From: Pelosinus sp. UFO1
Lineage (GTDB): Bacteria > Bacillota > Negativicutes > DSM-13327
Assembly: GCF_000725345.1 (NCBI RefSeq)
Contig: NZ_CP008852.1
Span: 3,278,001 to 3,342,000 of the forward strand
Reading direction: 5' to 3'
Length of the DNA stretch: 64,000 nt
Shown: positions 3,749-24,211 of the stretch, piece after piece
Numbering within the stretch: the first letter of the stretch is position 1
Layout of the letters: each line of letters starts with the position of its first letter
Translations under genes and position numbers: made by a program
The notes under the pieces: model-generated
Database searches by the model: none
Told to the model about the DNA's origin: nothing
Seen by the model: the letters and a program-made list of their open reading frames with translations, nothing else

Positions 3749-3779
3749 AATAAAAACCTCCTATCGGTTGCAGAATTGA

Positions 3780-5303: not shown

Positions 5304-5401
5304 TGTATACTCCCCCTACATCCCTTTTATTTTTGAGAACAAGTGTATAATACTCGTCTCTTTCTCGCATCATAGCTGACAAATGCTACACTGTTAATCT
5401 C

Positions 5402-5444
5402 AATACAAGAACTTATTTAATTTAATTAAATAAGTTCTTGTATT
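5402..5444. repeat. Perfect 43-base palindrome between the GPH transporter and uxaB
   Basis: Bases 5402-5422 are the exact reverse complement of 5424-5444 around a single central T, with further T's on the plus side. It lies within the uxa operon, so as RNA it would be a very long AT-rich stem between two cistrons. It contains ACTTATTTAATTTAATTAA, nearly identical to bases 7019-7037 upstream of the transporter gene, so it may instead be or include an operator. Confidence 0.7.
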
Positions 5445-5490
5445 TTTTCGCTTTATGAACAATGAAATCCTGCAAATAAACAATGTTTTT

Positions 5491-6834
5491 TTATGCTGAT
5501 TTTCCCTTTAGTTCTGCAATAATCTCACCATGTCTTTTATCACTTAAGGTATAAAGGAAAAATATCACTATGCCAGCACAGAATATAGTAACTGCTGGAT
5601 ATAAAAGTAACAGACCTTTTATTCCTCTTAGGGATTCTGCTGTTTGCACCGCATTTGGCACATATCCAACAAGAGATAACCCGATACCTGAAGCAAAACC
5701 TGAAACAGATTGGGCAATTTTTCGAGAAAAATTGAAGAATGAGTAGGTGATACCTTCTCTTCTTTCACCTGTTTTCCATTCACCAAAATCAATGGAGTCA
5801 GAAACAAAAGCCCAAGTAACGCCATTAGGAATACTAATTCCGACGAAGGCAATGCTTGCTAGTATGGTAAAAGTAACAATATCTCCCGGAATCAAAAAGT
5901 TAATTAAATCAGCAACAGCACTTATTCCAAAACCAATGAGTGCCGTATTTTTTTTACCAAATCTTTTTGTCAATTTAGGGATAAAGGTAATGCCTACACA
6001 GGAACAACCAATGGTAATAAAGCTAATATAGGGCATCAAACTGATATCGCCAAGATTATATTGACAATAATAGATCATCATTGCCGATTTGATATTGTAT
6101 GCTGAAATCGTAAAGATCGTCATTAATATAAGTGCCAATAAAGGTCTATTGGTAAATACGGATTTTGCCATCGCTTTCACTGAGAATTTTTCATTAGAAG
6201 AAATAGTCTTCCCCAGAATAACTTCTTTGCAATTTTTAAAACAGAAATAGAAAGCTGTAACACCAATTACAGAAGTAAGAGCAACCACTACAGGCCAGCC
6301 AATACGTGGATCAGAAAATTGTTTAATAAGGGGAACCACCATTACACTGGTTATTAATAAGGCTCCTAAAGAACCAGCCTGACGCCAGGATGCTAAGGAG
6401 GCCCGATCTACGGGATCTTGTGTCATTGAAGCACCTAATGCACCATAAGGAACATTCGTGAAAGAATATCCTACGCCCCATGCCATATATGTGGCATAAC
6501 CAAATATCATTTTTCCAGTAGGTGAGAAATCAGGAGATAAAAATACAAATACAGATAAAATACCAAGAATAATACTTCCTCCAAACATCATCCCACGGAA
6601 CTTCCCTTTATTAGGATCAAACTTTCTGGCATCAATAAAAGCACCAGCGATTGGATCCATAAACGCGTCAAATATTTTGGTAAGGAGGAATATGCTTCCT
6701 GCTACCGCCGCTGGAATACCAAAGACATCCGTATAAAATTTAAGCAAATAGATCTGCCCCATATCGAACATAAACCCATTACCAAAATCACCTAGACCAT
6801 AAGAAACCTTTTCTTTTAAAGTTAGTTTGCTCAT
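5491..6834 (-). CDS. GPH-family sugar (probable hexuronate):cation symporter
   Basis: A 447-residue, roughly 12-helix inner-membrane carrier of the glycoside-pentoside-hexuronide family (MFS_2). The N-terminus has KEKVSYGLGDFGNGFMFD and the loop between helices 2 and 3 has DAFMDPIAGAFIDAR, both typical of the family. The central VPYGALGASMTQDPVDRASL segment is also characteristic. It has a strong AAGGAGG site and is the first gene of the operon with uxaB and uxaA, so hexuronate (galacturonate or tagaturonate) uptake is the likely job. The specificity is inferred from context only. Confidence 0.85.
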   Translation of the reverse strand: MSKLTLKEKVSYGLGDFGNGFMFDMGQIYLLKFYTDVFGIPAAVAGSIFLLTKIFDAFMDPIAGAFIDARKFDPNKGKFRGMMFGGSIILGILSVFVFLSPDFSPTGKMIFGYATYMAWGVGYSFTNVPYGALGASMTQDPVDRASLASWRQAGSLGALLITSVMVVPLIKQFSDPRIGWPVVVALTSVIGVTAFYFCFKNCKEVILGKTISSNEKFSVKAMAKSVFTNRPLLALILMTIFTISAYNIKSAMMIYYCQYNLGDISLMPYISFITIGCSCVGITFIPKLTKRFGKKNTALIGFGISAVADLINFLIPGDIVTFTILASIAFVGISIPNGVTWAFVSDSIDFGEWKTGERREGITYSFFNFSRKIAQSVSGFASGIGLSLVGYVPNAVQTAESLRGIKGLLLLYPAVTIFCAGIVIFFLYTLSDKRHGEIIAELKGKSA

Positions 6835-7018
6835 TTACTATTGCCTCCTTTAATTCTGCCTATTTCGAAAATAGTTGCTACAAGTATTCTGCAAAGAATC
6901 AGTCCTTAAATATTAGTTATTTCCTTTCTATTTAGAGATTATTATATATAACAGATAGGATGTATTATTCATCTATCTGATTATCCCCTACTTTAGCATT
7001 TATTAAATTTTACCAATT

Positions 7019-7037
7019 ACTTATTTAAGTTAATTAA
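7019..7037. promoter_or_regulatory. Candidate operator motif shared with 5411-5429
   Basis: ACTTATTTAAGTTAATTAA at 7019-7037 matches ACTTATTTAATTTAATTAA at 5411-5429 in 18 of 19 positions. The two copies flank the GPH transporter gene on either side. A site for the neighbouring ROK regulator is plausible but unproven. Confidence 0.35.
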
Positions 7038-7161
7038 CTATCTTTTGTGATGTATTCTATCTTTTCTGAAAAAGTCCTTCTTTTCAGAAATTAATTTATA
7101 AAAAAAATAAAATAGCTTAAATACATCAGGATTTAAACCATTTTATCTGCAACCTTAGTTA

Positions 7162-7202
7162 GTTGCTCTAAACCCTGTCGTCAATCTAAGCCTTAGAGCA
7201 AC
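7162..7202 (-). terminator. Hairpin after the ROK regulator gene
   Basis: GTTGCTCTAA (7162-7171) pairs perfectly with TTAGAGCAAC (7193-7202) around a 21-base loop, 24 bases beyond the ROK stop codon. There is no clear T run on the minus strand, so termination is only a guess. Confidence 0.4.
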
Positions 7203-7225
7203 ATAGTTGGTGGTGTTAGCTGCTA

Positions 7226-8488
7226 TCATCCTTTATACTTTTGCTCTCTATCATCTACTATCTCATCAAATATCTCCGTGTTAGGTGTTTTTAATATCTT
7301 TTTAAGAGCGAGAGCGCATGCTCCTATCACACCTGAATCTGCACCTAGTTTCGAGATAACAATAGCAGTTGCATCTTCAACTTCTGAAAAAGTATGAGAT
7401 GCGATCACTTCACGAAATTCTTCTCTAAAAAACTCTGCTACCATTGCTAATTTTCCACCGATAAAAACTGCATCCGGATTATAAAGATTAATCATGTGAG
7501 AAGTTGCTAACGCTACATACCGATTAGCCTGTCGTAACACTTCTCTTGCATAAGATTCTTCTTTAAAAGCAACTTCCAATAGATCTTTGATTCCAATCTC
7601 TTTTCCGCTGCCCAAATACTTCTTTAAGGCATCTTCGCCAGCAATAAAAGGTAACTCCGCGTTCACCTTTCGCAAAATCGCAGGAATACCACATATCGTT
7701 TCAAGACAACCACGATTTCCACAATTACATAACGCTCCCTGCTCAATCATAACTGTATGCCCAATTTGTCCAGCATATCCTTGAGACCCTTGTACAATAC
7801 ATTCGCCCATAATTATGCCTGCACTAATTCCTTCTCCCATGTTTATATATATCAAATTTTCGCAACTAGTACCGCCACCGAACCATTTTTCCCCTAAAGC
7901 CGCTACCTTCGAATTTGTCTCAATAAATACAGGCATAGCAAATTCATTTTCTAATATCGACTTTAAGGGAAAGCCATTCCATTCTTTACCTAAATTAACC
8001 GCTCTCTTTACTGTGCCTTCCTGCCCATGCAGCATACCCGGAAAGGCGATAGCGATCCCCAGAAATTTTTTGGATTTATGCTCTTTATGAAAAATAACTT
8101 GGTTTATGATATGAATAAGTTCTTTAACCGCAGCATTAGGGTCCTTCATCGCAACCTTCATACGTTGAATCGAGGTGGGCATGTTTTTTAAGTCGGCAAG
8201 TGCAACAGTAATTTCTTGACTCGTAATTTCAATCCCAATTACATATCCTGCTTCACTATTAAATTGTAAGCTAACAGGTCTCCTCCCGCCTTGTGATTCC
8301 CCTAAGCCAACTTCTTTTACAAATCCAGTATCAATTAACTCACGAATAATCCCTGTAATTGCTGGTGGTGTAAGGCCAGTTAATTCAGCTAATTGTTGAC
8401 GAGAAATTAGTTCATTTTCTTTAATAATGTTCACGATAGTCATTCGGTTTAACTTTTTAACATATTTACTATTTCCAGGGCTTTTCAT
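7226..8488 (-). CDS. ROK-family transcriptional regulator (XylR/NagC type)
   Basis: A 420-residue repressor: an N-terminal winged helix-turn-helix (about residues 15-65, RQQLAELTGLTPPAITGIIREL) followed by a ROK sugar-kinase-like domain. The zinc-binding ROK signature is present (GH..., then CNCGNRGCLE near residues 254-263). I chose the ATG at 8488, preceded by AGGAAG, over an upstream TTG. It sits just upstream of, and in the same direction as, the hexuronate operon, which makes it the obvious candidate regulator. The effector is not identifiable from sequence. Confidence 0.85.
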   Translation of the reverse strand: MKSPGNSKYVKKLNRMTIVNIIKENELISRQQLAELTGLTPPAITGIIRELIDTGFVKEVGLGESQGGRRPVSLQFNSEAGYVIGIEITSQEITVALADLKNMPTSIQRMKVAMKDPNAAVKELIHIINQVIFHKEHKSKKFLGIAIAFPGMLHGQEGTVKRAVNLGKEWNGFPLKSILENEFAMPVFIETNSKVAALGEKWFGGGTSCENLIYINMGEGISAGIIMGECIVQGSQGYAGQIGHTVMIEQGALCNCGNRGCLETICGIPAILRKVNAELPFIAGEDALKKYLGSGKEIGIKDLLEVAFKEESYAREVLRQANRYVALATSHMINLYNPDAVFIGGKLAMVAEFFREEFREVIASHTFSEVEDATAIVISKLGADSGVIGACALALKKILKTPNTEIFDEIVDDREQKYKG

Positions 8489-8587
8489 CTTTCTTCCTAT
8501 CCTCAACTTTTGCTTAAATTTTCACTCTATATGCTCAATAGCTAAATTATACCCTACAGAACATACCAAGCCAATCAATTTCTTACT

Positions 8588-9939: not shown

Positions 9940-10045
9940 ATTTTTTTACGGAATCAAAAAGTATAACACTTTCTGGTTCCAAGTAAGAACGACTAAAGCT
10001 TCTGCCTGCGTCCGAGGACTTGGCACAAGCTAAGTCTTTTCTTAT
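9940..10045 (-). repeat. Two-hairpin intergenic repeat, copy 2 (3' end of araD)
   Basis: Near-identical to 581-687: the same T7 run, the same GGAATCA...GGTTCC hairpin and the same GACTTGGC hairpin, here with one change (GCTAAGTC). The repeat runs over the araD stop codon (10042-10044), so the last base triplet of araD is supplied by the element. Both copies have the same orientation relative to the upstream gene. Confidence 0.75.
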
Positions 10046-10734
10046 CTTTTTTGTCCATAGTAAGCGTCACTGCCATGTTTCCGCAAGAAATGTTTATCTA
10101 ATAATACAGAATCAATGCTTTTATCATCTTCTTTCAACTGTGATGTATGAAGAGCCATCTTGGCAACCTCTTCTAATACGGTAGCATGATATACTGCTTC
10201 ATGAGCATCTTTCCCCCAAGAAAAAGGCCCATGATTGGCAACCAAAACACTAGGAACATGTCTAACCTCTTTATTGGTAAAGGATTCTACTATTACATTG
10301 CCTGTTTCTTCTTCATAATTTCCTTGTATTTCTTCTTCTCTCAAAGTTCGTGTACAGGGTACATCACCATAAAAATAATCCGCATGTGTAGTTCCAAAGG
10401 CGGGGATGGATTTTGCAGCTTGTGCCCATATGGTGGCATAGGTTGAGTGAGTATGAACAACTCCACCAATTGTTAGAAAGTTACGGTACAAAACCAAATG
10501 AGTCGGTGTATCTGACGAAGGTCTAAGGTCTCCTTCTACTTGGTTTCCAAATAAATCGACAACTACCATGTCTTGGGGACCCATTTTATCATAATCTACG
10601 CCGCTCGGTTTAATAACAACCAAGCCTTTTTCTCTGTCAATTCCACTTGCGTTCCCCCAAGTATATAACACGAGTCCATTTTTCTGCAGTTCTAAATTGG
10701 CTTCTAAAACTGTCTTTTTTAACTCTTTTAACAA
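10042..10734 (-). CDS. araD: L-ribulose-5-phosphate 4-epimerase
   Basis: A 230-residue class II aldolase-family epimerase, zinc-dependent, which converts L-ribulose 5-phosphate to D-xylulose 5-phosphate at the end of L-arabinose catabolism. Typical strings are [32 protein letters not shown], the metal site [14 protein letters not shown] and [20 protein letters not shown]. The open frame extends to a TTG at 10755, but AAGGGGG lies 8 bases before a second TTG at 10734, giving the usual 230-231 residue length. It is the last gene of the ytfQRT-yjfF operon. No araA or araB is in the window. Its stop codon lies inside the two-hairpin repeat. Confidence 0.92.
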
Positions 10735-10784
10735 TGTAATTTCCCCCTTCTTCAACGACGGTATTTACGACATCTCAGATTCTA

Positions 10785-11768
10785 TTATGCAATTGCTTTG
10801 GTACGCTCTTTCCTTGCAATAATAATTCTCTGCAATACGATAAATATACACAATAGAAATGCAATCGCAATCTTAGTCCACCAAGAACTTAACGTACCTT
10901 GGAACATAATGAGAGTTTGTATGACTCCTTGAATTAAGACTCCAAAGACAGTTCCTGTCACAAAACCTACTCCACCCGTCAAGGGTGTTCCACCAATTAC
11001 TGCCGATGCAATGGCATCCATCTCTAAACCAACAGCATGTAATCCATAACCAGAAAGCATATAGAAACTAAATACAATCCCAGCCAAGGCGGAACAAAAT
11101 CCATTAAAAGCATATACTAATACTTTTGTTCTCCCGACTGGCAACCCCATTAACATAGCGGATTGGGCATTGCCACCAATTGCATAAACAGTACGTCCGA
11201 ACTTAGTGTAGTTAATAAGATACAATGCTGCTAAGACTAAGACTCCAGCAATAAGTACACTAATTGAAATAAAGGTCTCAAAAGGCAAGGGAATTCGATA
11301 CGTAGCAACTTGCTGATAAAAGGGATCCGTAATCATAATGGTATCAATACTTATGACATAACATAGTCCTCTAGCTAAGAACATCCCTGCAAGGGTGACA
11401 ATAAAAGGCTGTATATTGAAAAAGTGAATAAAACTACCTTGTGCCAAGCCAAAAAGAGAGCCCATAAGTAGCATTGCAGGAATCACTATAAAGGGACTCC
11501 AATGCTGCATTTCAAGTAAATAAGCTGACAACATACATACTAATGCGATCACCGAACCGATGGAAATGTCAATGCCGCCAATAATCAGAACAAAGGTCAT
11601 CCCAATCGAAGTAATAATTAAAAAGGCATTATCAATTAGCATATTTAATAACACTTGCGCTGAAAAGAAACCAGTATAAAGACCTGATCCTACAGCAAAT
11701 AATGCAATAAATAGGAAAATTGTAATAAATAGGTTAATGTACTTATAACTTAGCTGTATTCTTTTCAT
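10785..11768 (-). CDS. yjfF: Sugar ABC transporter permease, YjfF type
   Basis: A ~327-residue inner-membrane permease of the RbsC-like family (BPD_transp_2) with about 8-10 hydrophobic helices. GIDISIGSVIALV and the EAA-like region GLEMDAIASAVIGGTPLTGG are typical. Sequence and gene order match YjfF of the E. coli galactofuranose importer YtfQRT-YjfF. I chose the ATG at 11768 behind AAGGGGGG; it overlaps the upstream permease gene by 26 bases, implying translational coupling. It forms a heterodimeric channel with the 11743-12819 product. Confidence 0.85.
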   Translation of the reverse strand: MKRIQLSYKYINLFITIFLFIALFAVGSGLYTGFFSAQVLLNMLIDNAFLIITSIGMTFVLIIGGIDISIGSVIALVCMLSAYLLEMQHWSPFIVIPAMLLMGSLFGLAQGSFIHFFNIQPFIVTLAGMFLARGLCYVISIDTIMITDPFYQQVATYRIPLPFETFISISVLIAGVLVLAALYLINYTKFGRTVYAIGGNAQSAMLMGLPVGRTKVLVYAFNGFCSALAGIVFSFYMLSGYGLHAVGLEMDAIASAVIGGTPLTGGVGFVTGTVFGVLIQGVIQTLIMFQGTLSSWWTKIAIAFLLCIFIVLQRIIIARKERTKAIA

Positions 11769-12819
11769 CTGAAATCCCCCCTTTATGAGCCCACTTAGCA
11801 AATACAATTTTTCGAAAATTCGCGGATTGCAGCAGACAAATCAAAATTACAACAACGGACTTAACAACAAGGGTAATTTCCGGGGGCACACCAATGGCAT
11901 AAATTGTAGTCGTTATACTTTGAATAACCAAGGCTCCAATTAGACTGCCTACTAAAGAAAACCGACCACCATCTAAAGAATTTCCGCCTAGAGAAACTGC
12001 CAATATTGCATCGAGTTCAATAAAGAGGCCCGCGTTATTCCCATCTGCTGAGCTTACATTCGAACAAATGATCAGCCCTGCTATACCTGCACATAGGCCA
12101 GAAAAAGCATATACGGAAAAGATATATTTACTAACACTAATCCCAGCAAATTTACTAGCTACAGGATTAATGCCAATCGACTCAATAAACATCCCAAGAG
12201 CTGTTTTGCGCACTGCATATAAGGTAACAGCAAAAACTACTGCGACAATAAACAGAGAAAAAGGTAATCCTAATAGATAACCAGTACCAATGTATTGAAA
12301 AGGTTTATAATAGATGGTAATAATTTGTCCTTGGGTAATTAGCTGAGCAATTCCACGACCAGCCACAAGTAATATTAACGTCGCAACAATAGGTTGGATT
12401 CCCACTCTAGAGATTAATAATCCATTCCACATCCCAAGTAAAGTAGTTGCCAGCAGTGCCACAAGTATAGCTACTGGCATAGGCACTAAGGTTACTAACT
12501 TTTGTACGCCATCCACATACTCTAATTTACCACCAATCAAAGAGGCCGCTACCGCTCCTGAAATAGCAATCACTGATCCTACTGATATATCAATTCCCTT
12601 TGTCGCAATAACTAATGTCATGCCAATGGCTAAAAGCATAAGAGGGGTAGCACGATTGAGGATATCAATCGTAACGCCATAAAGATGACCATCTTTAATT
12701 TCGATCGAAAAAAAATCTTTCGTAAAAAAGAGATTAAACAATAAGACTATACATAACGCGGCTAAAGGCCAGCACAGTTGAGAGCTTTTTAGTCGATTCC
12801 ATATATTTTTTATATCCAT
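11743..12819 (-). CDS. ytfT: Sugar ABC transporter permease, YtfT type
   Basis: A 358-residue RbsC-like permease, partner of YjfF. It begins with a short cytosolic segment followed by a hydrophobic helix, then the conserved KGIDISVGSVIAISGAVAAS block and the C-terminal ELDAILAVSLGGNSLDGGR motif. It starts 3 bases after the ATPase stop codon with only a weak ribosome site (GGGTG), which suggests coupling to the ATPase gene. Substrate by homology is a furanose sugar (galactofuranose or arabinose). Confidence 0.85.
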   Translation of the reverse strand: MDIKNIWNRLKSSQLCWPLAALCIVLLFNLFFTKDFFSIEIKDGHLYGVTIDILNRATPLMLLAIGMTLVIATKGIDISVGSVIAISGAVAASLIGGKLEYVDGVQKLVTLVPMPVAILVALLATTLLGMWNGLLISRVGIQPIVATLILLVAGRGIAQLITQGQIITIYYKPFQYIGTGYLLGLPFSLFIVAVVFAVTLYAVRKTALGMFIESIGINPVASKFAGISVSKYIFSVYAFSGLCAGIAGLIICSNVSSADGNNAGLFIELDAILAVSLGGNSLDGGRFSLVGSLIGALVIQSITTTIYAIGVPPEITLVVKSVVVILICLLQSANFRKIVFAKWAHKGGISDEKNTAKL

Positions 12820-12822
12820 CTG

Positions 12823-14331
12823 CTACACCCCTGCTATCGTCTGCATAATAAATTTTTCTTCAATTTCTTCACCAGAGATCTCCGCTATTTTTACTCTATC
12901 TCGTAAAACCGCCATACGATTGGAGCATCTCACTGATTCATCTAGCTCTGATGAAATAAAGATTACTGACATTCCTTCCGTTGCAAGAGACAGTATGAGT
13001 TTTTGAATTTCAACTTTAGCACCGATATCAATGCCGCGGGTAGGTTCATCTAATATAAGTAATGTTGGTTCTGTCAGTAACCATCTAGCTAATATTACTT
13101 TCTGTTGATTGCCACCACTCAAATTCTTGATTAATTGCTCCGGCCCAGAGGTTTTAATATTTAATAATTTAATATATCGATCCGCAATTTCTTCTTGTTT
13201 TTTCTTCGTAATATACTTCATCCAGCCTTTTTTTGCTTGCAACGCAAGGATAATATTCTCTCTAACCGTAAGATTATCAATGATACCTTCTGTTTTTCTA
13301 TTTTCCGAACAATATGCCAGACCATGTTGAATTGCATCAACTGGAGTATTGATCTTGGCTATTTTCCCATTAATTTCAATTTTACCGCAATCGGCTTTAT
13401 CAATACCAAAAATAGTACGGGCAACCTCTGTCCTCCCTGATCCTAACAATCCCACTAGGCCAAGAACTTCCCCTTTATTCACATAAAGATCGAAAGGATT
13501 AATTGAACCCTTATGCCCAAGGCCATGTGCCTTTAAAAAGGCTAGACTACTATCTTGACGAACATTGCCTTCTGTTTTTTTACAAGTATTTTCAAGTTCA
13601 TCAAACGCTTTGCCAATCATTTTTGCAATTAATTGAACACGAGGTAATTCCGTTGTTTTATAAGAACCGACTAGTTCCCCATTACGCAATATAGTAATAC
13701 GATCCGATACAGCATATACTTGCTCAATAAAGTGGGTAATAAATATAATACCCATACCTTCTTCTTTCAGTTTACGGATAAGATCAAAAAGTTGCCCTAC
13801 TTCCTTCGCATCTAAACTAGAAGTTGGTTCATCTAAGATGAGAACTTTTGCCGATATATCAAGGGCTCTGGCGATAGCAACCATTTGTTGTATGGCCACT
13901 GAATATCGTTCTAAGGGTTGCGTGACATCAATATGAAGCCCCATCTTCGCCAGTAAAACTTCTGAACGACTATGAATCTCCTTCCAATTAATCCTACCAA
14001 AATGTAAGGGTTCCCGCCCAATAAAAATATTTTCCGCGACAGACAAATTCGGGCAAAGATTCACTTCTTGATATACGGTGCTAATCCCTAATTGTTGTGC
14101 ATGATGAGGAGAACTTGGCTTGATTGGGTTATCCCCTAAAAAGATATGACCACCATCTAATATTTCAACACCTGTCAACACTTTTATTAAGGTAGATTTA
14201 CCTGCACCGTTTTCTCCCATTAAGCAGTGGATTTCTCCCGCTTTTAAGTCAAAATCTACATTAGTAAGTGCTTTAACCCCTGGAAAAACCTTGCATATAC
14301 CTTGCGCCTTTAATAATGTCATTTTATCCAT
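12823..14331 (-). CDS. ytfR: Sugar ABC transporter ATPase, YtfR type
   Basis: A ~502-residue cytosolic protein with two tandem ATPase domains, as usual for RbsA/MglA/YtfR. The first half has Walker A GENGAGKST and Walker B LILDEPT with a degenerate signature (SVAIQQMVAIARAL). The second half has a degenerate Walker A (GLLGSGRTE), an intact signature LSGGNQQK and LILDEPTRGID. The ATG at 14331 behind GGAGGTG was chosen over an upstream start. A hairpin with a T run separates it from the ytfQ-like gene and may lower its expression relative to the binding protein. Confidence 0.88.
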   Translation of the reverse strand: MDKMTLLKAQGICKVFPGVKALTNVDFDLKAGEIHCLMGENGAGKSTLIKVLTGVEILDGGHIFLGDNPIKPSSPHHAQQLGISTVYQEVNLCPNLSVAENIFIGREPLHFGRINWKEIHSRSEVLLAKMGLHIDVTQPLERYSVAIQQMVAIARALDISAKVLILDEPTSSLDAKEVGQLFDLIRKLKEEGMGIIFITHFIEQVYAVSDRITILRNGELVGSYKTTELPRVQLIAKMIGKAFDELENTCKKTEGNVRQDSSLAFLKAHGLGHKGSINPFDLYVNKGEVLGLVGLLGSGRTEVARTIFGIDKADCGKIEINGKIAKINTPVDAIQHGLAYCSENRKTEGIIDNLTVRENIILALQAKKGWMKYITKKKQEEIADRYIKLLNIKTSGPEQLIKNLSGGNQQKVILARWLLTEPTLLILDEPTRGIDIGAKVEIQKLILSLATEGMSVIFISSELDESVRCSNRMAVLRDRVKIAEISGEEIEEKFIMQTIAGV

Positions 14332-14371
14332 ACTTGCTTGTTCACCTCCATAGCAAATCACTCCTTACAGT

Positions 14372-14481: not shown

Positions 14482-15492
14482 TTAATATTTACGATTTGGT
14501 AATTCCTTTGCAGCTACTTCTGCAGGGAATACACCTTCTTTTGTCACAATGCGTTTATCAATCGTCTTTCCTGCTACAAGATCTTTAGCAGCTGCCATTA
14601 ATTGATCACCAAGTAATGGACTGCACTCAATACTGGCATTTAATTTTCCAGCTATCATTGCTTCAAAAGCACCTTTTACACCATCTATTGAAACAATAAT
14701 AATATCTTTACCAGGTTTCAAGCCAGCTTCTTCAATGGCTTGGATTGCGCCAATTGCCATATCATCATTATGAGCATAAAGAACATCAATTTTTTGTCCA
14801 TCAGCCTTAGCTGATTTTAAGAAGGATTCCATAACTTCTTTGCCTTTTGCACGAGTGAAATCACCAGTTTGAGATTTAATAATTTTATAATTTGCATTTT
14901 GTTTTAAAACTTCTTCAAATCCAGTTTTACGATCAATAGCAGGTGCAGAACCTACTGTTCCTTGAAGCTCAACAATATTAACAGGTTCTTTATCTTTTTT
15001 CATGAAATCAACTAGCCATTTACCAGCTCTACGGCCTTCTTCCACAAAGTCAGAACCCATGAAGGTAACATAATAGTCTTCTGCTTTACCGTTACTCATC
15101 TTAATGGAGCGATCTGTCAAGATAACAGGTATTTTAGCTGTTTTTGCTTCTTGTAATACTGCATCCCAGCCTGTTTCAACAACAGGTGAGAAAGCGATTA
15201 CATCGACTTTTTGTTGTATAAATGAACGTATTGCTTTTATTTGATTTTCTTGTTTTTGTTGCGCATCTGAAAATTTAAGGTCAATCCCAGCTGCTTGTGC
15301 TGAGGCTTTTATCGATTCAGTATTTGCTGTACGCCACTCACTTTCCGCACCAATTTGAGAGAAACCTAGGACAATTTTTTTGTCTGCAGGCTTAGCAGCT
15401 GTTTCCTGCTTGGCACTACCTCCACAACCTGCAAGTGTTAACATCATAATACCTACACTCAAAGCGACTGTGATCTTTTTCCACTTTGACAT
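14482..15492 (-). CDS. ytfQ: Sugar ABC transporter substrate-binding lipoprotein, YtfQ type
   Basis: A 336-residue exported binding protein (peripheral-binding-protein-like I fold). The N-terminus is a lipoprotein signal ending LTLAGC, so Cys23 is the likely lipidated residue. Residues ~40-330 form the two-lobed domain, with GFSQIGAESEWRTANTES, NDDMAIGAIQAIEEAG and the YtfQ-like C-terminus VTKEGVFPAEVAAKELPNRKY (the last residues end in NRKY). It is the first gene of the transporter block and resembles the second half of the fused double-binding lipoprotein immediately upstream. Homology points to galactofuranose or arabinose. Confidence 0.88.
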   Translation of the reverse strand: MSKWKKITVALSVGIMMLTLAGCGGSAKQETAAKPADKKIVLGFSQIGAESEWRTANTESIKASAQAAGIDLKFSDAQQKQENQIKAIRSFIQQKVDVIAFSPVVETGWDAVLQEAKTAKIPVILTDRSIKMSNGKAEDYYVTFMGSDFVEEGRRAGKWLVDFMKKDKEPVNIVELQGTVGSAPAIDRKTGFEEVLKQNANYKIIKSQTGDFTRAKGKEVMESFLKSAKADGQKIDVLYAHNDDMAIGAIQAIEEAGLKPGKDIIIVSIDGVKGAFEAMIAGKLNASIECSPLLGDQLMAAAKDLVAGKTIDKRIVTKEGVFPAEVAAKELPNRKY

Positions 15493-15538: not shown

Positions 15539-15590
15539 ATTATAGGACGAGGGATTTTCAGTGTATTTAGAATAATCAGTAATTTTTTAT
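15539..15590 (-). promoter_or_regulatory. Candidate activator-dependent promoter of the ytfQRT-yjfF-araD operon
   Basis: On the minus strand a perfect TATAAT (15544 down to 15539) lies about 50 bases before the ytfQ start. No TTGACA-like -35 is seen at 16-18 bases. Upstream there are two direct ACTGAWWAT half-repeats 18 bases apart. This fits activation by the AraC-type response regulator encoded nearby, but it is only a reading of the sequence. Confidence 0.4.
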
Positions 15591-15615
15591 ATTTTTCCGT
15601 ACTGTTTACCAAATT

Positions 15616-17481
15616 TTAATATTTGCGATTCACATGATCCTTCCTTGCAGTTTCAGCTGGGAATACACCTTCTGAAGTTATAATTCTCATAGGTAATTGC
15701 CTACCCATCATCAAAGTTTTAACGGCTTGCATCAGCTGTGGACCAAGCAGGGGGGTACATTCGACAGTACAGTTAAGTTTACCAGCAAGCATTGCTTTAA
15801 AAGCAGCTTCTGTTGCATCCACAGAAACAATTAAAATATCCTTTCCTGGACGTAAACCATATTCCTCAATCGCTTTAATAGCCCCTAAAGCCATATCATC
15901 ATTATGGGCATATACCACATCAATCTTATTTCCATAGAGAGCTAAGGCTGATTTCATAATTTCTTGTCCGCCAGCCTCCGTAAAATCTCCAGATGCGGAG
16001 TAAATCACTCTATTTTCAGGATAATTACTAATAATTTCAGCAAAACCTTTTTTTCGATCTAGTGCTGGCGCTGAGTCAAAGGTTCCTTCAATTTCAACAA
16101 TGTTCTGCTGCTGGGTATCTTTCTTTTGTCCAACAAGCCACCTTGCGGCTCTACGCCCTTCTTCCACAAAGTCACTGCCAATAAAGCTGGCATACAAGGA
16201 AGCATCGTTTGATTTAATAGCCCTGTCCGATAAAACAACGGGAATTCCTGCTGCTTTAGCCTCTTCTAGCACCTCGGTCCACCCTGATTCAATGACAGGG
16301 GAAAAGGCAATCACATCAACGCCTTGCGCAATAAAGGAACGGATATCTCTAATCTGAGTCTCCTGCCGTTGATCGCCCTCCAAAAATATAAGCTCAATAT
16401 CTGCTTCACGGGCTGCCGTCTTAATCGATTGGGAATTTGCTCTTCGCCAGTCACTCTCTGCACCAAGTTGAGAAAACCCTAATACAATTCTCCGGTTGCT
16501 AGTAGGATTATTTTTTTTAACTTCATTCGTAGACTTTACATATTCTAAAACGTTGGCTAGAGTGATTTTATTACTGCGTGGAATAATCTTCTTTGGTAAA
16601 CCTTTTTCATGGTTTAAGATGTCAAGGGCGTACTGAATGGCTTCTCGTCCCCCTGTCAAGCAGGTAAATGTGCCTTGTAAAACGCCATCTTCTACTAACT
16701 GCAATCCCCCATTAGGACCAGAAAAGCCATCAATACCGACAAATTTTATACCGGTAAGCCCTTTCTTTTTCGCTGCCTTATATGCTCCTAGTGCCATATA
16801 ATCACTATGGGCAAAAACTACATCGATTTTGGGATACTGATCTAGTAATTCAGTCATTTTGTCTTCTGCCTTATCGCGCTGCCAATCGGCAACAATTGTA
16901 TCTATGATACTTATATTTGCGTATTTTCCAATCACTTCACGAAAGCCAGCACTTCTTTCTTGCAAAGAAGGTACCCCAGATGGACCTTGAATCTCTACCA
17001 CATTTCCGCCTGTTTTGTTAAGAAGTTCGCTAATATATTTACCTGCTTCTCTACCAATGGATTTATTATCTGGTCCAATATACAAAGTATAATCATAGCC
17101 TTCTACCGCCCGGTCTAAGACAATAACGGGAATTTTTTTATAAGCCTGGGCAACTACGGGCGTTAACGCAACTGAATCATTTGGAGAGATAATTAATAAA
17201 TCGATACCCTGCTGTAATAATTCACCTACATCACGAACCTGTTTTTCACTATTTTGAACTGCATCCGTAAATACAATGCGAACATCGCTATGCTTTGCTG
17301 CTTCTTCTCTTATCTCCTCATTCATAATGATTCTCCACGGCTCAATCAAATTTGCCTGGGATACACCAATAACAAATTTTACTTGATCCTGGGAAACCTG
17401 CCTTTCTTGCCTTTGACATCCCCCAAGCATTGCTATAACGAAAATAAGTAAACTGATTATACAATACTTGCCTCTAACCAA
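15616..17481 (-). CDS. Lipoprotein with two fused sugar-binding domains
   Basis: About 621 residues, twice the usual length for a binding protein. A lipoprotein signal (hydrophobic stretch then MLGGC) is followed by two periplasmic-binding-protein domains: roughly residues 30-320 and 335-620, joined by a short polar linker rich in Lys and Asn. The second domain is a close relative of the downstream ytfQ product, sharing GFSQLGAESDWRRANSQS, AHNDDMALGAIKAIEEYG and the NRKY C-terminus. The first is more distant. GGAGGT lies 7 bases before a TTG at 17481, which I prefer to the GTG or ATG that overlap the response-regulator stop. It sits directly behind the YesM/YesN-like pair, so it may sense sugar for the kinase rather than feed the importer. 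Confidence 0.85.
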   Translation of the reverse strand: MVRGKYCIISLLIFVIAMLGGCQRQERQVSQDQVKFVIGVSQANLIEPWRIIMNEEIREEAAKHSDVRIVFTDAVQNSEKQVRDVGELLQQGIDLLIISPNDSVALTPVVAQAYKKIPVIVLDRAVEGYDYTLYIGPDNKSIGREAGKYISELLNKTGGNVVEIQGPSGVPSLQERSAGFREVIGKYANISIIDTIVADWQRDKAEDKMTELLDQYPKIDVVFAHSDYMALGAYKAAKKKGLTGIKFVGIDGFSGPNGGLQLVEDGVLQGTFTCLTGGREAIQYALDILNHEKGLPKKIIPRSNKITLANVLEYVKSTNEVKKNNPTSNRRIVLGFSQLGAESDWRRANSQSIKTAAREADIELIFLEGDQRQETQIRDIRSFIAQGVDVIAFSPVIESGWTEVLEEAKAAGIPVVLSDRAIKSNDASLYASFIGSDFVEEGRRAARWLVGQKKDTQQQNIVEIEGTFDSAPALDRKKGFAEIISNYPENRVIYSASGDFTEAGGQEIMKSALALYGNKIDVVYAHNDDMALGAIKAIEEYGLRPGKDILIVSVDATEAAFKAMLAGKLNCTVECTPLLGPQLMQAVKTLMMGRQLPMRIITSEGVFPAETARKDHVNRKY

Positions 17482-17486
17482 TTGCA

Positions 17487-18698
17487 TCACCTCCAGTTAC
17501 CCCTTTTACGATATTCAGCAGGAGATGAGCCCATAACTCTTTTAAACGCTGTACTAAAATAATGCTGATTACTGTATCCCACCTTTTCCGCTACCTCATA
17601 AAGCTTTACAGCCGGGTCAGTCATAAACTGAATGGCTTTTTGTACCCTTACATGGGTTAAATATTCAACAAAAGAAACACCAATTTCATTCTTTAATAAT
17701 CGGCTTAAATAAGTAGGACTGATTTGAATCGTGTCTGCTAACTCCTGCAATGATAACTCTTCTTTATAAAAATAAGTTTCAATGTGTTTTTGTGCTAGAA
17801 GCACGACAGGCGTATAGCTAACTTTACGATTTAACTCCAATATTAATTCATGATAAGTCGAAGGGATTGAGGACAAGTCCTCTGTTAATGGATGTTGAAC
17901 AATAATTACCACTTGTTTTAAATGTTCCTCAATAGCTTGTTGCAAAGAAGTGCTAAGCTCGTACCATTCTCTTATACTATGGATATTTGTTATTGCAACT
18001 AAGTTATCTGCTTTGTCGTGAAAAATAATGTAGGGCTGCCATTGTTCTAGCAGCTCGCTATAAATATTTTGTATAGCAAATAACAATAGGTGATGATCCC
18101 ACTCTCTTAACAACTGCCCTCTGCTAAATTGCCCTGCTACTTTTAAGATTACCATCCCAGCTATATCAGGTATATCTAGCTCTAAAAAGCGTAGCTGAGT
18201 CTTAATATATTCCTCACTTAGCTGTCCAGTAACCCAGTCATTACAAAAAGATTCTTGTAATAGGGGTAACTTTTTCCTTGTTTCTTGACTCGACCAAGTG
18301 AGGTGATTCTTTTGTAAACGAGAATCGAGAAGTTTTTGTTGGGCTTTTTGTAAAACAGCCTCTAACTGTTCTTTGAGAACCGGTTTTAGCAGGTAGTCAA
18401 ATACTTGTAATTTTATCGCTTGTTGGGCGTAAGTAAATTCATCGTATCCTGTAATGACAATTACGATACAATCTTTTAAAACGTGATTTAATTGTTCAAT
18501 GAACTGCAATCCATTCAAAAATGGCATACAAATATCCACTAATAGAATATCAGGATGGATCTCTTTTGCTAGCTGCAAGGCCATTTCTCCATCCTCAGCC
18601 TCGCCTGCGACTTCCATATCTAATAACCCATTTTCGACTAGACTTCTCAGCCCACGACGAATTTTAGGTTCATCATCAGCAATTAATACCTTTAGCAT
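17487..18698 (-). CDS. Response regulator with AraC-type DNA-binding domain (YesN-like)
   Basis: A 403-residue cytosolic transcription factor. The N-terminal receiver domain has the acidic pair ADDEP, the phosphoacceptor D55 in LLVDICMP and the conserved K in LLKPVLKEQL. A middle region of about 170 residues shows no recognised motif. The C-terminal ~100 residues form two helix-turn-helix units (LQELADTIQISPTYLSRLLK and VAEKVGYSNQHYFSTAFKR). It is 15 bases downstream of its kinase gene. The likely target is the adjacent sugar importer and araD operon. Confidence 0.9.
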   Translation of the reverse strand: MLKVLIADDEPKIRRGLRSLVENGLLDMEVAGEAEDGEMALQLAKEIHPDILLVDICMPFLNGLQFIEQLNHVLKDCIVIVITGYDEFTYAQQAIKLQVFDYLLKPVLKEQLEAVLQKAQQKLLDSRLQKNHLTWSSQETRKKLPLLQESFCNDWVTGQLSEEYIKTQLRFLELDIPDIAGMVILKVAGQFSRGQLLREWDHHLLLFAIQNIYSELLEQWQPYIIFHDKADNLVAITNIHSIREWYELSTSLQQAIEEHLKQVVIIVQHPLTEDLSSIPSTYHELILELNRKVSYTPVVLLAQKHIETYFYKEELSLQELADTIQISPTYLSRLLKNEIGVSFVEYLTHVRVQKAIQFMTDPAVKLYEVAEKVGYSNQHYFSTAFKRVMGSSPAEYRKRGNWR

Positions 18699-18713: not shown

Positions 18714-20477
18714 TTAAATTAATGGATGCCAGAGTTCTACTTTAGTACCTTCTTCATAAACGCTAGTATAAATTAATCCGTATTCTTTACCAAAAGACAA
18801 GCGAATTCGTTCATTAACATTAAAAATACCAAACCCTGCGGCGGCTGGTTCAACATGGTTGTTGTCAAGTAATTCTCGTATTTCTTTCAGTTTTTCTTTT
18901 GTTATACCAATACCATTATCTACTACACTAAAATATAATTTCTCCTCTTTTACACTACCAGTAATAATGATTTTACCGCCTCCCCGCCTAGCATTAATAC
19001 CATGGTAAATTGCATTCTCGACGAGCGGCTGCAGGATTAACTTCAAAACTCTATAATGTATTATTTCCTCATCATAATGTATCTCGTAGGTCAATTTGTC
19101 TTCGTAACGAGCTTTTTGAATCGCCAAGTAACTGCCTACATGCTCCAATTCTTCATGGACTTGAATCATTTCTTTCCCTTTACTAAGACCAATACGAAAC
19201 AGATTTGCTAGTGCACCTAGAATCTTAACTACATCTTGCGCCCCATGTTCTTGGGCCATCCACTGGATTGTATATAAGGTATTGTACAAAAAATGGGGCT
19301 TAATTTGTGCTTGTAAGGTTTTTAATTCTGCCTCGCGTTTTCGTCGTTGTTCTACATACACCATATCTATTAAATTACTGATTTCTTTTATCATATTGTT
19401 AAAACTATTACCAAGCTGACCAATTTCATCATTGTAACGACTATTAAAACGTACGCTTAAATCTCCTTCCTCCGCTCTTTTCATTAACATACGCAACTTA
19501 CTTAGGGGTTTTGCGATGGATGCGGTAAAAAAGAAAGCGGCGATGACTGCCAGCACTAACGTAATGATTCCAATCATAATTGAATAGTGGCGAAGGTTTG
19601 TCACTTCTTGTAATGTTTCATTTAAAGAAAAGACACCAATCGTTTTCCAGTTCGTATAGGTTGAATCTTTATAAATAATCTGAAACTCACTACCTTGAAT
19701 GGTTTTGACAATGCTATTGTTGTAATCAGTGAGCCATTCATTTTTGACTCGATACACAATGGGATTGATAGGAGCATATACAATACCGCCATTTGCATCC
19801 ATAATATAAAGGAATCCATTTTTTCCTAGAGTAATGGCTTCAATCACTTGTTTGATTTTTTCTAATTTGAGATCAATTAGAATGACACCTAGTCGTCTAC
19901 CTGTAAGAGGATCCATAACGGCCTTAGCAATAGAAACAACTTCATCACCACTATAATTTAAGGTTGCTTTGATATTACGACCAATGGGCTTACTGAACAG
20001 GTGTATCACCTTTGGTGATGCAAAGGCTCGTTTATACCATGACTCCTCCGTAAGAGGGTCACGAGAAATCCGATCCATTCCGTTGCTAATATAAAAATTG
20101 TTATCATTGACCACTAATATTCCTGCAACCTCTTGATGTACATCTGAATAAGTTTTGAGTACTCGCCTGGATTCTTGAATCATATCTTCACTATCGTTTT
20201 CATCATTTTGGTGTTTCATAAAGGCGATAATCTGAGGATCATCGGATAGATAGTAAATTATATTTTCCATATCGTGAATGTAAAATTCTACGTTACGAGT
20301 TACCTGCTCGATCATTTGACCCGTGTGAACCGTGGCCTGATCTTCTATTGACTTACTATAAATTACGTTTCCTAGTACTCCCAAGGTAACAGTGGGCAAT
20401 AAAATTAAGGTAAAGAAATATAGCAGTAGTTTAAAACGAAGGTTTTCTCCCTTTAAGAAGGTACGGAAAGCTCCCAA
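18714..20477 (-). CDS. Sensor histidine kinase (YesM-like)
   Basis: A 587-residue membrane kinase. Two hydrophobic helices (about residues 16-38 and 290-312) enclose an extracytoplasmic sensor of Cache type. A HAMP linker (about 313-365) follows, then the His_kinase domain with the phosphoacceptor His in QIKPHFLYNTL and a HATPase domain with LVENAIYHGI and VDNGIGI. The start is a TTG behind AGGATGG. The extracytoplasmic sensor could contact the fused binding lipoprotein encoded two genes downstream, as in known Firmicute sugar-sensing three-component systems; that contact is inference. Confidence 0.9.
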   Translation of the reverse strand: MGAFRTFLKGENLRFKLLLYFFTLILLPTVTLGVLGNVIYSKSIEDQATVHTGQMIEQVTRNVEFYIHDMENIIYYLSDDPQIIAFMKHQNDENDSEDMIQESRRVLKTYSDVHQEVAGILVVNDNNFYISNGMDRISRDPLTEESWYKRAFASPKVIHLFSKPIGRNIKATLNYSGDEVVSIAKAVMDPLTGRRLGVILIDLKLEKIKQVIEAITLGKNGFLYIMDANGGIVYAPINPIVYRVKNEWLTDYNNSIVKTIQGSEFQIIYKDSTYTNWKTIGVFSLNETLQEVTNLRHYSIMIGIITLVLAVIAAFFFTASIAKPLSKLRMLMKRAEEGDLSVRFNSRYNDEIGQLGNSFNNMIKEISNLIDMVYVEQRRKREAELKTLQAQIKPHFLYNTLYTIQWMAQEHGAQDVVKILGALANLFRIGLSKGKEMIQVHEELEHVGSYLAIQKARYEDKLTYEIHYDEEIIHYRVLKLILQPLVENAIYHGINARRGGGKIIITGSVKEEKLYFSVVDNGIGITKEKLKEIRELLDNNHVEPAAAGFGIFNVNERIRLSFGKEYGLIYTSVYEEGTKVELWHPLI

Positions 20478-20567: not shown

Positions 20568-20604
20568 AAAAAAATAATCTGTAGAACAATTGGGTTCTAC
20601 AGAT
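20568..20604 (-). terminator. Terminator of the partner-switch/MCP operon
   Basis: On the minus strand ATCTGTAGAAC (20604-20594) pairs perfectly with GTTCTACAGAT (20587-20577) around 6 bases. It is followed by TA and seven T (A run at 20568-20574). It lies 44 bases beyond the MCP stop codon. Confidence 0.9.
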
Positions 20605-20647: not shown

Positions 20648-22378
20648 TTACACCTTAAACTTTTCTACCGAGCCTTTTAATTGATGGGCCATAGCGCTGG
20701 TTTCTTCTGCACTAGCAGCTACCGTCTGCATTGCAGCCGATTGTTGCTGAGAAGAAGCGGCGATTTCCTCACCGTGAGCTGCAACGCTTTCAATCATTGT
20801 TGCAAGAGCATCGATTAATTTTATAATTTGTTCAGAACTTGCAACTTCTGAAGAAGTTACTTTGCCAATTTCCTGTGTTTCCATTACTGTTTTCTTTACC
20901 TCTAGCAAAATGCTATCCAAGGCTTTCCCGGCTGCATTAACGGTAGAAACTCCAGATTCAACCTCTACCACATTTTGGGCCATTGCGGCGACAGCTAAAT
21001 TTGTTTTTTCAGTAACCACATTCACTAGGGAAGTAATCTCTTGTGCCCCTTGGTCTGACTGCTCTGCTAATTTTCGAACTTCTTCTGCAACTACAGCAAA
21101 CCCTCGTCCATGTTCCCCTGCCCGAGCCGCCTCAATAGCAGCGTTAAGAGCTAAAAGATTGGTTTGTTTTGCTAAGTTAGTGATCGTATTCGTGATCTGA
21201 GAGATCTGCTGAGAGTAGGTGTTAAGTTCGCCAATGATTTGACTTGAATGCTGGGTCTGCTCTTTTATATTATCCATGCGCGTAACAGAATCTGTTACTC
21301 TATGTCGCCCATCTTCCGCGGCGACCAGTGTAGTTTCTGAATTTTCCACTGTATTATCAGCCTTAGATTTTGCAATTTGTATCAGACTAGATAACTCAAC
21401 CAGCGCTTGTGATGCCTCTAACATGGACCGATTTCCTAAATCCGCTTCTTGCGCTAATTGTTGCATATTAGCAGATACTTCTTCACTAGAAGAGGTTACC
21501 TCTTCTGTTGATGCCGCCATTTCTTGCGAAGCAGCAGCCAATTGCTCGGACGCCGAACGAATATTACTAATCATCTCTACAAAATGTTTATGCATCTCTT
21601 GTAAAGACCCTGCCAGTTGCCCTATTTCATCTGAACTTGTTACCTCAATATCACCGCGTAAATCACCCTGTGCATATTGATGTGCAATGGCAGTAAGTTT
21701 TGTGATCGGCCGACGAATCATATTCGTTAATGTAATCGCAATAATGATACCTAACACTAAGACAAGCACACTAATAACCGTAGAGGTGGTCATTACACTC
21801 TTACCATTTGCAATACTTTGCGCAACAAGACCTTTTGATAACTCAACATTGATCGCGGCAAAACCGTCTAAGGCTTTTTCAATCGCTGCCGCTTGCGGTG
21901 CTACCCGTTTTGCGAATTCTACTAATTTCACTTTATACTCTTGCGCCGCAGAATAATTTCCTGCAGCTAGCAATGTGTTGTATTGTTTTGCATTAGGCAC
22001 AAACTCAGATAAAACTGCATTTTTATATTTAGTGGTTTCATCAATAACATTTTGTACCTCTGCCTTTTTGTCCGGTCTAGCAAGAGCCAATAAATCCTTT
22101 TCTAATTTTATAACCTTCTCAAAGTCACTATCAATTTTACCTAGGTATGCATCATCACCGTAGGCAACATAGGCACGAAGGCCTGATACAGTTACTTTAT
22201 ATTGATAGGCAATGTCGTTAGCAAGGGTCATTCGAACATTTGCTTGCTCAATTTTTTCTAAATCATCTTTGGCATTTCCTAGTGAAATTAAGGAATTGAT
22301 AGCCATAATCAAAATTAAGGCTATCACCACACCAAAGCTAGCTGCAATTTTAGTACCTATTTTAAGTTGTAATTTCAC
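20648..22378 (-). CDS. Methyl-accepting chemotaxis protein with four-helix-bundle sensor
   Basis: A 576-residue transmembrane receptor. TM1 is about residues 12-32, then a periplasmic four-helix-bundle (4HB_MCP) domain to ~190. TM2 is about 195-217, followed by HAMP (to ~270) and a long cytoplasmic signalling coiled coil. The hairpin tip [19 protein letters not shown] is intact. The start is a GTG. It is the last of four co-directional genes after rsbW-like, STAS and PP2C genes, 24 bases from the phosphatase, which suggests a linked signalling unit. A C-terminal MCP fragment at 30261-30380 resembles the end of this class. Confidence 0.92.
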
Positions 22379-22402
22379 TTTATTTCATCACCTTTATATT
22401 AT

Positions 22403-23458
22403 TTAATGGAGCATAATTCCCAAACCTGTGGCATCATCACGACATTCTCCACTAGTAACAATTTTTTCACACATTTCAAGTAAGCTCTCGAAATTGAGTT
22501 CCTGTTCTAACGGTTGTTTAAACCGCTCAAATAAGCCATCTGTTAAAAATAGGAAACCTTCACCTGGCTGAAAAGAATACGTATCTTGATCAAAAGTTTC
22601 TCCTTCTTTAATTCCTAAGAAAATTCCAGGAGCCTTTGTTATTTGCGCCTTTTGATTCTTGATACTTATAAAATAATTAATTCCTCCCGCCGAATAGGTA
22701 AGAGTATTACACGTAAAATCAAATTCAAATAAAAACACACCGGCAAATTCTCCGCCCGTAAAAAAGGGCATAACTTCCTTATTCATCCAGGCTAGCTTAT
22801 CTTTTACGGATTTCTTTTTATCGACTACTCTTAAGAAAAGATATTTTAAAAGGTTCGTTTGAAACGCTGCTGCGAGTCCGTGTCCCATAACATCAATTAC
22901 AATGCCATACAATTTTTGTGATTCTTCCTGAAACACGTAATCATATAAATCTCCGCTAATATAATTAGCGGGTTGGTAGATAGAAAAAGTACGAAATAAA
23001 TGATTGTCTGTATCCCTTGGCAGCAATCTACGCTGCACCTTACCTGCCAGTTGAATTTCTTCGCGCATTTTACCATTCGATGTTAGATTTCGTACCACAG
23101 CGGCAAAAACAAACTTTCCATGTAAACTCATATAACGCGAGCTTATTTCTACTTTAAAAATAGAACCGTCCTTCTTAATATGATTGGCAGTAAAAACATA
23201 GCCATCTTTTTGTTTCTTAGCTAAATCCAGATTTTCCTGTATCAACCTGGCCGAATTGTGGCTAATATCTTTAACGAATTTTGTAAGACACTCTTCCTCT
23301 GAATATTGATACATATCTAATGCCTTGCGATTCATAAAAAGAATTTTTCCATTTTCAAAATCTATTAGTATAAAAGGATCATTAATCATATTTAACAGGT
23401 CAATGCGTTGGCAATAACCACAGCTCTCACCGAAAATATTCGAATGCAAAAAACTCAC
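22403..23458 (-). CDS. PAS-domain PP2C-type serine phosphatase (RsbU/SpoIIE-like)
   Basis: A 351-residue soluble phosphatase. Four cysteine/histidine-rich residues near the start (CGYC) precede a PAS domain (about residues 20-130, INDPFILIDFENGKILFMNR). The SpoIIE/PP2C domain follows (about 145-350) with the metal-binding strings YISGDLYDY and IDVMGHGLAAAF and the late FLFLTDGLFERF. It should dephosphorylate the STAS antagonist encoded 16 bases upstream. The start is GTG with GAGGGG 8 bases away. Confidence 0.88.
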   Translation of the reverse strand: MSFLHSNIFGESCGYCQRIDLLNMINDPFILIDFENGKILFMNRKALDMYQYSEEECLTKFVKDISHNSARLIQENLDLAKKQKDGYVFTANHIKKDGSIFKVEISSRYMSLHGKFVFAAVVRNLTSNGKMREEIQLAGKVQRRLLPRDTDNHLFRTFSIYQPANYISGDLYDYVFQEESQKLYGIVIDVMGHGLAAAFQTNLLKYLFLRVVDKKKSVKDKLAWMNKEVMPFFTGGEFAGVFLFEFDFTCNTLTYSAGGINYFISIKNQKAQITKAPGIFLGIKEGETFDQDTYSFQPGEGFLFLTDGLFERFKQPLEQELNFESLLEMCEKIVTSGECRDDATGLGIMLH

Positions 23459-23474
23459 GTGTCCATCCCCTCAT

Positions 23475-23780
23475 CTACGGTTGCATGGTAAAGACTTTGT
23501 TTAGTCTTGTTAGTTCAAAGAGTTCTTTCACGATACCTTTGGCACCTACCAGAACTACACCACCCTCTTTTTGTAATGCTTTTTTCTGTATAGCAACAAG
23601 GACACCTAAGCCCGAACTATCAATATACTCCACCTCATGGAGCTTAATGATAAATTGTTTGTGTCCCGACTCCATAAAGGCAAGCAACTTTTCTCTTAAA
23701 ATTGCAGCATCTTCTACATACAAACTACCTACTAAATTAACCGTAACTTCTTCCCTGTTAGTATTCGTGCTAATTTCCAT
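23475..23780 (-). CDS. STAS-domain anti-sigma-factor antagonist (RsbV/SpoIIAA-like)
   Basis: A 101-residue single STAS domain. The phosphorylatable serine lies in YIDSSGLGVLVAI (Ser55 or Ser56). In the family, phosphorylation by an RsbW-type kinase inactivates it and a PP2C phosphatase restores it; both partners are encoded next to it. Ribosome site AAAGGGG is good. Confidence 0.9.
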   Translation of the reverse strand: MEISTNTNREEVTVNLVGSLYVEDAAILREKLLAFMESGHKQFIIKLHEVEYIDSSGLGVLVAIQKKALQKEGGVVLVGAKGIVKELFELTRLNKVFTMQP

Positions 23781-23833
23781 ACTATTATCCCCTTTCGAAA
23801 TCGCGTTTTTAAGCTTATATTTTTTAAAAAGAT

Positions 23834-24211
23834 CTATACTGTATTAATTTTTTTCACAAATGTGACTTCATTTCCTAGATCATTTAACCAATAAGAGTCC
23901 ACATAATGTTTTATTAAATTAATTCCTCTACCATCTTCTTGCCACAGCTCCGTTGTCTTGGACTCCTTTGAAACTAAAAATCCTTCGCCTTCATCGCGAA
24001 TCGTAATTTTCATTTCATTCGGTAGTTTCACCATAGAAAGATGTACTTTTTTAGAAGCATCTTGTTTATTACCATGAAAAATTGCATTATTAACACCTTC
24101 ATTAATTGCAAGAAATAGGCGAAGAGCATCCTCTCCGCAGTGTCGATCCAACTCTTTTTTGATCGAATCCCTCAAAGTCGCAAACTCTGCAAGTGAGGAA
24201 AAAGAGTACAT
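23834..24211 (-). CDS. RsbW-like serine kinase / anti-sigma factor
   Basis: A 125-residue GHKL ATPase domain (HATPase_c_2). The N box is EGVNNAIFHGN, and the G1 and G2 regions are DEGEGF and DGRGINLIKHYVD. It should phosphorylate the STAS protein and sequester a target when the STAS protein is phosphorylated. It is the first gene of the set, 53 bases before the STAS gene. No sigma factor gene is adjacent, so the target is unknown. Confidence 0.88.
   Translation of the reverse strand: MYSFSSLAEFATLRDSIKKELDRHCGEDALRLFLAINEGVNNAIFHGNKQDASKKVHLSMVKLPNEMKITIRDEGEGFLVSKESKTTELWQEDGRGINLIKHYVDSYWLNDLGNEVTFVKKINTV

Follow-up and report, generated by a model that had tools for sequence, protein, structure and literature searches.

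The window, that is, the whole stretch of DNA that was analysed (64,000 nucleotides of Pelosinus sp. UFO1), carries on its minus strand a gene for a double-headed sugar-binding protein, which is preceded by a YesM/YesN-type two-component pair and followed by the genes of a sugar importer. The features of this locus are the following.

15616–17481, minus strand: gene for the double-headed sugar-binding protein, which has 621 aa when read from TTG 17481 (the longest ORF reaches GTG 17490)
17416–17481, minus strand: lipoprotein signal peptide with lipobox LGGC, read from the sequence
16534–17382, minus strand: head D1, Peripla_BP_4, nearest solved relative 2X7X (BT1754 fructose sensor domain)
15619–16500, minus strand: head D2, a YtfQ/GafA-type Peripla_BP_4 domain with a complete pocket that has lost putative positions for permease docking
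15563–15591, minus strand: conserved cis-element TATAAAAAATTACTGATTATTCTAAATAC, 29 bp, a proposed regulator site defined by conservation across loci
15539–15544, minus strand: TATAAT, the ytfQ promoter's -10 element, located 18 nt past the box and conserved in relatives
17487–18698, minus strand: YesN-type response regulator, receiver and AraC-type HTH (Pfam PF00072, PF12833)
18714–20477, minus strand: YesM-type sensor histidine kinase (Pfam dCache_1, HAMP, His_kinase, HATPase_c)
14482–15492, minus strand: YtfQ/GafA-type binding protein of the importer (NF041827, 382 bits, cut-off of 510 not reached)
12823–14361, minus strand: YtfR-type ATPase (NF041861, cut-off not reached)
11743–12819, minus strand: YtfT-type permease (NF041862, cut-off not reached)
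10785–11807, minus strand: YjfF permease (NF008630 over cut-off; the 5' end of the ORF overlaps ytfT, and the true start is probably internal)
10042–10755, minus strand: AraD, L-ribulose-5-phosphate 4-epimerase (NF006047 and NF009003 over cut-off)

The original prediction of one protein with two different sugar-binding domains is borne out by a single unbroken minus-strand ORF with two different Peripla_BP_4 (PF13407) stretches; in Pfam, the protein as a whole matches with an E of 1.5e-96. TTG 17481 is preferred as the start codon, because a GGAGG lies 8 nt ahead of it, whereas GTG 17490 overlaps the regulator stop codon. The gene sits where it had been placed, with almost no gap after the response regulator (5 bp from its stop) and ahead of the importer operon (ytfQ begins ~120 bp downstream). 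The second head had also been described as near to YtfQ and the first as more distant, which agrees with the pairwise identities (58–60% between D2 and the adjacent YtfQ, 31% between D1 and YtfQ, 29.5% between D1 and D2). In a single-chain structural model, the double-headed protein has a mean pLDDT of 91.1 and a pTM of 0.87, which, read without a PAE map, we take to mean that the relative arrangement of both heads is defined in the model. No tandem binding protein is among the PDB matches listed for the fold searches with D1 and D2. That the protein is a lipoprotein holds in the window, where a signal peptide and an LGGC lipobox are found, but not in general, since the lipobox Cys is absent in several relatives, some of which are probably anchored by an N-terminal transmembrane segment.

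The surroundings of the locus deserve a brief description. Directly upstream of the kinase, within 20648–24211 (minus strand), is an ORF for a methyl-accepting chemotaxis protein, which is preceded by three ORFs whose sequences resemble those of a PAS-phosphatase, an anti-sigma-factor antagonist and a small ATPase, that is, a partner-switching module. All four names come from reading the sequence. A terminator-like stem (20577–20604) lies between the kinase and the chemotaxis-side ORFs. Elsewhere in the window, at 2258–8506 (minus strand), genes for a galactarate/altronate dehydratase, a mannitol dehydrogenase-type protein, an MFS_2 sugar transporter and a ROK regulator form a probable uronate catabolism cluster beside the arabinose locus.

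End-to-end relatives of the double-headed protein, with ORFs of ~620–650 aa and 60–96% identity, are found in 8/8 Pelosinus genomes and in other Negativicutes genera, and the architecture as such is present in Negativicutes, Clostridia and Spirochaetes. In a sample with one genome per species, restricted to the best 80 of 312 D1 relatives, 79 were classified, 55 of which are double-headed and 24 single-headed. Among these best relatives, a search for the same architecture beside kinases was successful, since 47 of the 55 double-headed loci have a YesM-type kinase and 54 have the regulator; seven of the eight kinase-less loci are short or truncated contigs. The double-headed gene, kinase and regulator occur in at least four gene orders, usually with a YtfQRT-YjfF (Gaf) importer nearby, and as both partners adjoin the gene in permuted orders and in two phyla, the claim that it travels with the YesM/YesN pair stands. 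Selenomonadaceae loci that have ytfQRT alone are without kinase, regulator and double-headed protein. Prevalence is low in a Clostridia sample, where a strong D1 match was found in 5 of 391 genomes, in two of which the frame is long (643 aa). In Roseiflexus, three D1 relatives (L149, L151 and L153) adjoin a 510–517-aa protein that is weakly similar (22%) to the N-terminal part of the kinase.

The first head has the pedigree of a sensor. The nearest solved protein to D1 is 2X7X (E 5.5e-60, 43.8% identity, TM 0.88 on the target), the binding domain of BT1754, a Bacteroides hybrid two-component fructose sensor. In BT1754, binding domain and kinase share one polypeptide. Here, kinase, receiver/HTH and binding domain are encoded by separate genes, and D1 is fused to another head. 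In a pocket comparison that follows RbsB numbering, the D1 of the window retains most of a sugar pocket (W15, R16, D89, R90, R141, W164 and D215). At RbsB 235, D1 has Tyr in 7/8 single-headed proteins whose loci contain xylose/ribose-type importers, whereas all 11 with a YtfQ-type importer have Cys or Ser there, a pattern that follows phylogeny. When distance matrices were compared, in an exploratory analysis limited to 14 loci (66 pairs, not independent of one another), D1 correlated with the kinase ectodomain with an r of 0.91 (partial 0.54) and D2 with an r of 0.81 (partial 0.13), the corresponding values for YtfQ and the importer being 0.95–0.97. D1 is thus probably the head that faces the kinase.

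The second head looks like a transport protein that has changed its occupation. The closeness of D2 to the importer's YtfQ, proposed at the outset, is upheld by its 58–60% identity, but not in the sense of a recent local copy, since in a quick tree (with some long branches) 54 of 55 local YtfQs group in a single clade that excludes D2 (SH-aLRT 99). On this evidence, D2 is a YtfQ paralogue of long standing, and the tree gives no support to an origin in which the local YtfQ was captured recently or repeatedly. Compared to YtfQ/GafA binding proteins of known structure (2VK2, 6HBM, 5OCP), D2 has kept the fold and the pocket residues, but it falls outside the local YtfQ clade and has lost some positions that are conserved in the transport proteins. 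The NF041827 score of the whole double-headed protein (409 bits vs a cut-off of 510) is uninformative, because the importer's own YtfQ (382) likewise falls short. All nine pocket positions are identical between D2 and YtfQ in 36 paired loci. By contrast, of the 11 YtfQ-invariant positions lost from D2, 10 map to RbsB 38–52 and 160–178, a clustering that was reached in 15 of 20,000 permutations (with windows re-chosen at each shuffle). These two segments follow equivalent strands in both lobes and are presumably the faces that dock onto the permease. Since D2 keeps the furanose pocket and has lost YtfQ surface positions, it most likely reports sugar rather than delivers it, and the sugar that it reads is probably the importer's own. 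In two loci (L061 and L062), the importer YtfQ is 61% identical to that of the window and groups with Lachnospiraceae YtfQs, whereas D2 stays with Negativicutes, which makes an importer replacement possible.

Which sugar this might be is indicated by the neighbouring genes and by related proteins. YtfQ-type proteins bind furanoses. The presence of araD in the window, of araA, araB or araD at other loci, and of GH43 or GH127 neighbours at several loci points to L-arabinose as the ligand. As a Shewanella YtfQ-type protein binds L-arabinofuranose (PMC10191376), ytfQRT-yjfF is a probable L-arabinofuranose importer.

The third element is the box ahead of ytfQ, a putative site that we propose links the kinase/regulator pair to the importer promoter. 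Its consensus is a direct repeat with a spacing of 20, and it is unique, with no second match at up to 3 mismatches in the organism's own 5.1-Mb genome. No sigma-70-type promoter was listed at the box/TATAAT region in a promoter scan of the window. The box is kept ahead of ytfQ in the Negativicutes loci examined (the Propionispora and Lucifera copies are more diverged), and where ytfQ is split from ytfR (L065 and L082) there is one box per unit. In ~28 non-Negativicutes loci (a scripted count of 29 minus L115, where the match is inside D1), the best match per locus sits before the importer; these positions include Clostridium, Spirochaetes and Paenibacillus, even single-headed Paenibacillus with another importer. 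Lachnospiraceae/Oscillospiraceae loci gave no convincing match in the box scan. In Ruminiclostridium, the box separates the double-headed gene from the gene of a GH43 protein, and in three loci (L083–L085) it is ahead of a 1816–1918-aa ORF downstream of the double-headed gene, the one scanned (L084) having GH43, PA14 and other domains.

Together, these observations suggest, with a probability that we put at about 0.75, that the double-headed protein serves a three-component system as its binding protein, and that this system induces the L-arabinofuranose importer. The membrane-tethered protein would (i) bind sugar in both heads and (ii) signal, presumably by contact, to the adjoining YesM-type kinase, which would (iii) phosphorylate the YesN-type regulator, which would in turn (iv) bind the 29-bp box 18 nt upstream of TATAAT and turn on ytfQRT-yjfF. 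D1, of BT1754 sensor lineage, would face the kinase, and D2 would report the importer's sugar. The most likely outcome would be a cell informed of plant arabinose outside. A three-component sugar sensor was what the original prediction had envisaged, and it is supported as far as the co-occurrence with kinase and regulator, the box and the kept pockets are concerned, the contact, the phosphorelay and the DNA binding being steps that we infer.

The gene content is that of a three-component system, since an SBP, a sensor kinase and an AraC-type regulator are linked, besides the importer's own SBP. Such systems are of a known type. In D-xylose sensing by Clostridium beijerinckii, a complex of a single-domain SBP and a kinase, XylFII-LytS, controls a sugar importer. 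The likeness is in an SBP tied to both kinase and sugar importer, and the difference in its single domain. D1 is far nearer 2X7X (E 5.5e-60) and by comparison matches only weakly (~2e-12) the chains 5xsj/5xss, which we take to be XylFII. AraPST of Geobacillus stearothermophilus reportedly combines an arabinose-related SBP, a kinase and an AraC-type regulator by a sugar importer, the same gene content as two single-headed loci with xylose/ribose-type importers (L097 and L108); its SBP, unlike that of the window, is reportedly single-headed. A further example is CuaDSR, the cellobiose three-component system of Ruminiclostridium cellulolyticum, in which CuaD binds the kinase ectodomain and which controls an importer operon (PMC10384115). 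Its SBP is likewise a lipoprotein, different from the SBP of the importer and encoded next to genes for a HAMP-type kinase and a YesN/AraC regulator, but it has one binding domain and serves cellobiose, and the CuaS ectodomain is without predicted domain, as opposed to dCache_1 here (PMC10384115). The three-component sugar sensors in the open-licence papers searched have single binding domains, and no two-headed version was found there.

Do both heads sense? It is possible, if doubtful, that only one head does and that the other has a structural role or is a relic. The D1 tree lends this some weight, since four double-headed Clostridium proteins are interspersed among 11 single-headed ones, which suggests that D2 was lost there (a direction of change that we infer). 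In the same tree, the single-headed proteins of Paenibacillus and Neobacillus diverge at the base of the double-headed group or outside it. Single-headed relatives that have kinase, regulator and the same importer also show that such a system can do without D2. Pockets have decayed in places as well. In two Spirochaetes loci (L134 and L139), the double-headed protein is beside a ChvE-GguAB importer and the pocket of its second head is degraded, the aromatic at RbsB 164 is missing from D1 in ~25 double-headed proteins of a Lachnospiraceae/Oscillospiraceae clade, and the Arg at RbsB 141 is missing from D1 of four Clostridium single-headed proteins; D1 may therefore not bind sugar everywhere. Such a division of labour is, however, at odds with the nine of nine pocket positions kept by D2 in the 36 paired loci and with the seven pocket residues retained by D1 in the window.

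A speculative and rather improbable extension of the three-component reading is that the two heads are a logic gate on one kinase, with D2 reading furanose L-arabinose released from plant polymers, D1 another ring form or another sugar, and the kinase answering to both signals together. If true, the bacterium could distinguish fresh polymer breakdown from free sugar.

The kinase, which has its own predicted dCache_1 domain, might instead sense sugar directly, with the double-headed protein as an accessory that raises sensitivity. R. cellulolyticum provides a precedent, since CuaSR answers cellobiose without CuaD, although less efficiently, but the CuaS ectodomain, once purified, showed no binding to any sugar tested (PMC10384115). 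Moreover, binding protein, kinase and regulator co-occur near-universally and the distances of the kinase ectodomain track D1, which makes direct sensing unlikely.

We consider it very unlikely that the double-headed protein is mainly a second transport receptor, with heads that supply YtfRT-YjfF with two sugars, or with a larger amount of one, in the manner of GlnPQ. GlnPQ likewise has two substrate-binding domains in one polypeptide, but these are fused to the transporter membrane domain and serve uptake (PMC8025302), whereas Pfam finds no membrane-transport domain in the double-headed protein. The identity of D2 with YtfQ, its kept pocket and the locus shared with the importer would suit such a role. 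Against it, the importer already comes with a YtfQ whose distances follow those of the permease, D2 has lost YtfQ-conserved positions clustered on two segments and diverges faster than YtfQ (mean identity of 68% vs 86% in ten Negativicutes loci), D1 is related to a kinase-fused sensor, and Paenibacillus relatives combine a D1-only protein with a different importer.

A sequencing error joining two genes at about residue 325 is excluded by the full-length relatives across genus, class and two phyla, and with this architecture kept at 36–96% identity in the two phyla and nothing found in its favour, a recent functionless gene fusion can be dismissed too.

The three-component reading, in which one receptor with two heads would induce an arabinofuranose importer, has implications that reach beyond Pelosinus. 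On the practical side, the single-headed relatives make the role of the second head testable by natural comparison, and the conserved box offers a direct DNA-binding and reporter test. More generally, the two-headed receptor bears on how two binding sites feed one kinase and, with single-headed relatives and an importer of known sugar type at hand, lends itself to comparative study of how SBPs shift from transport to signalling.
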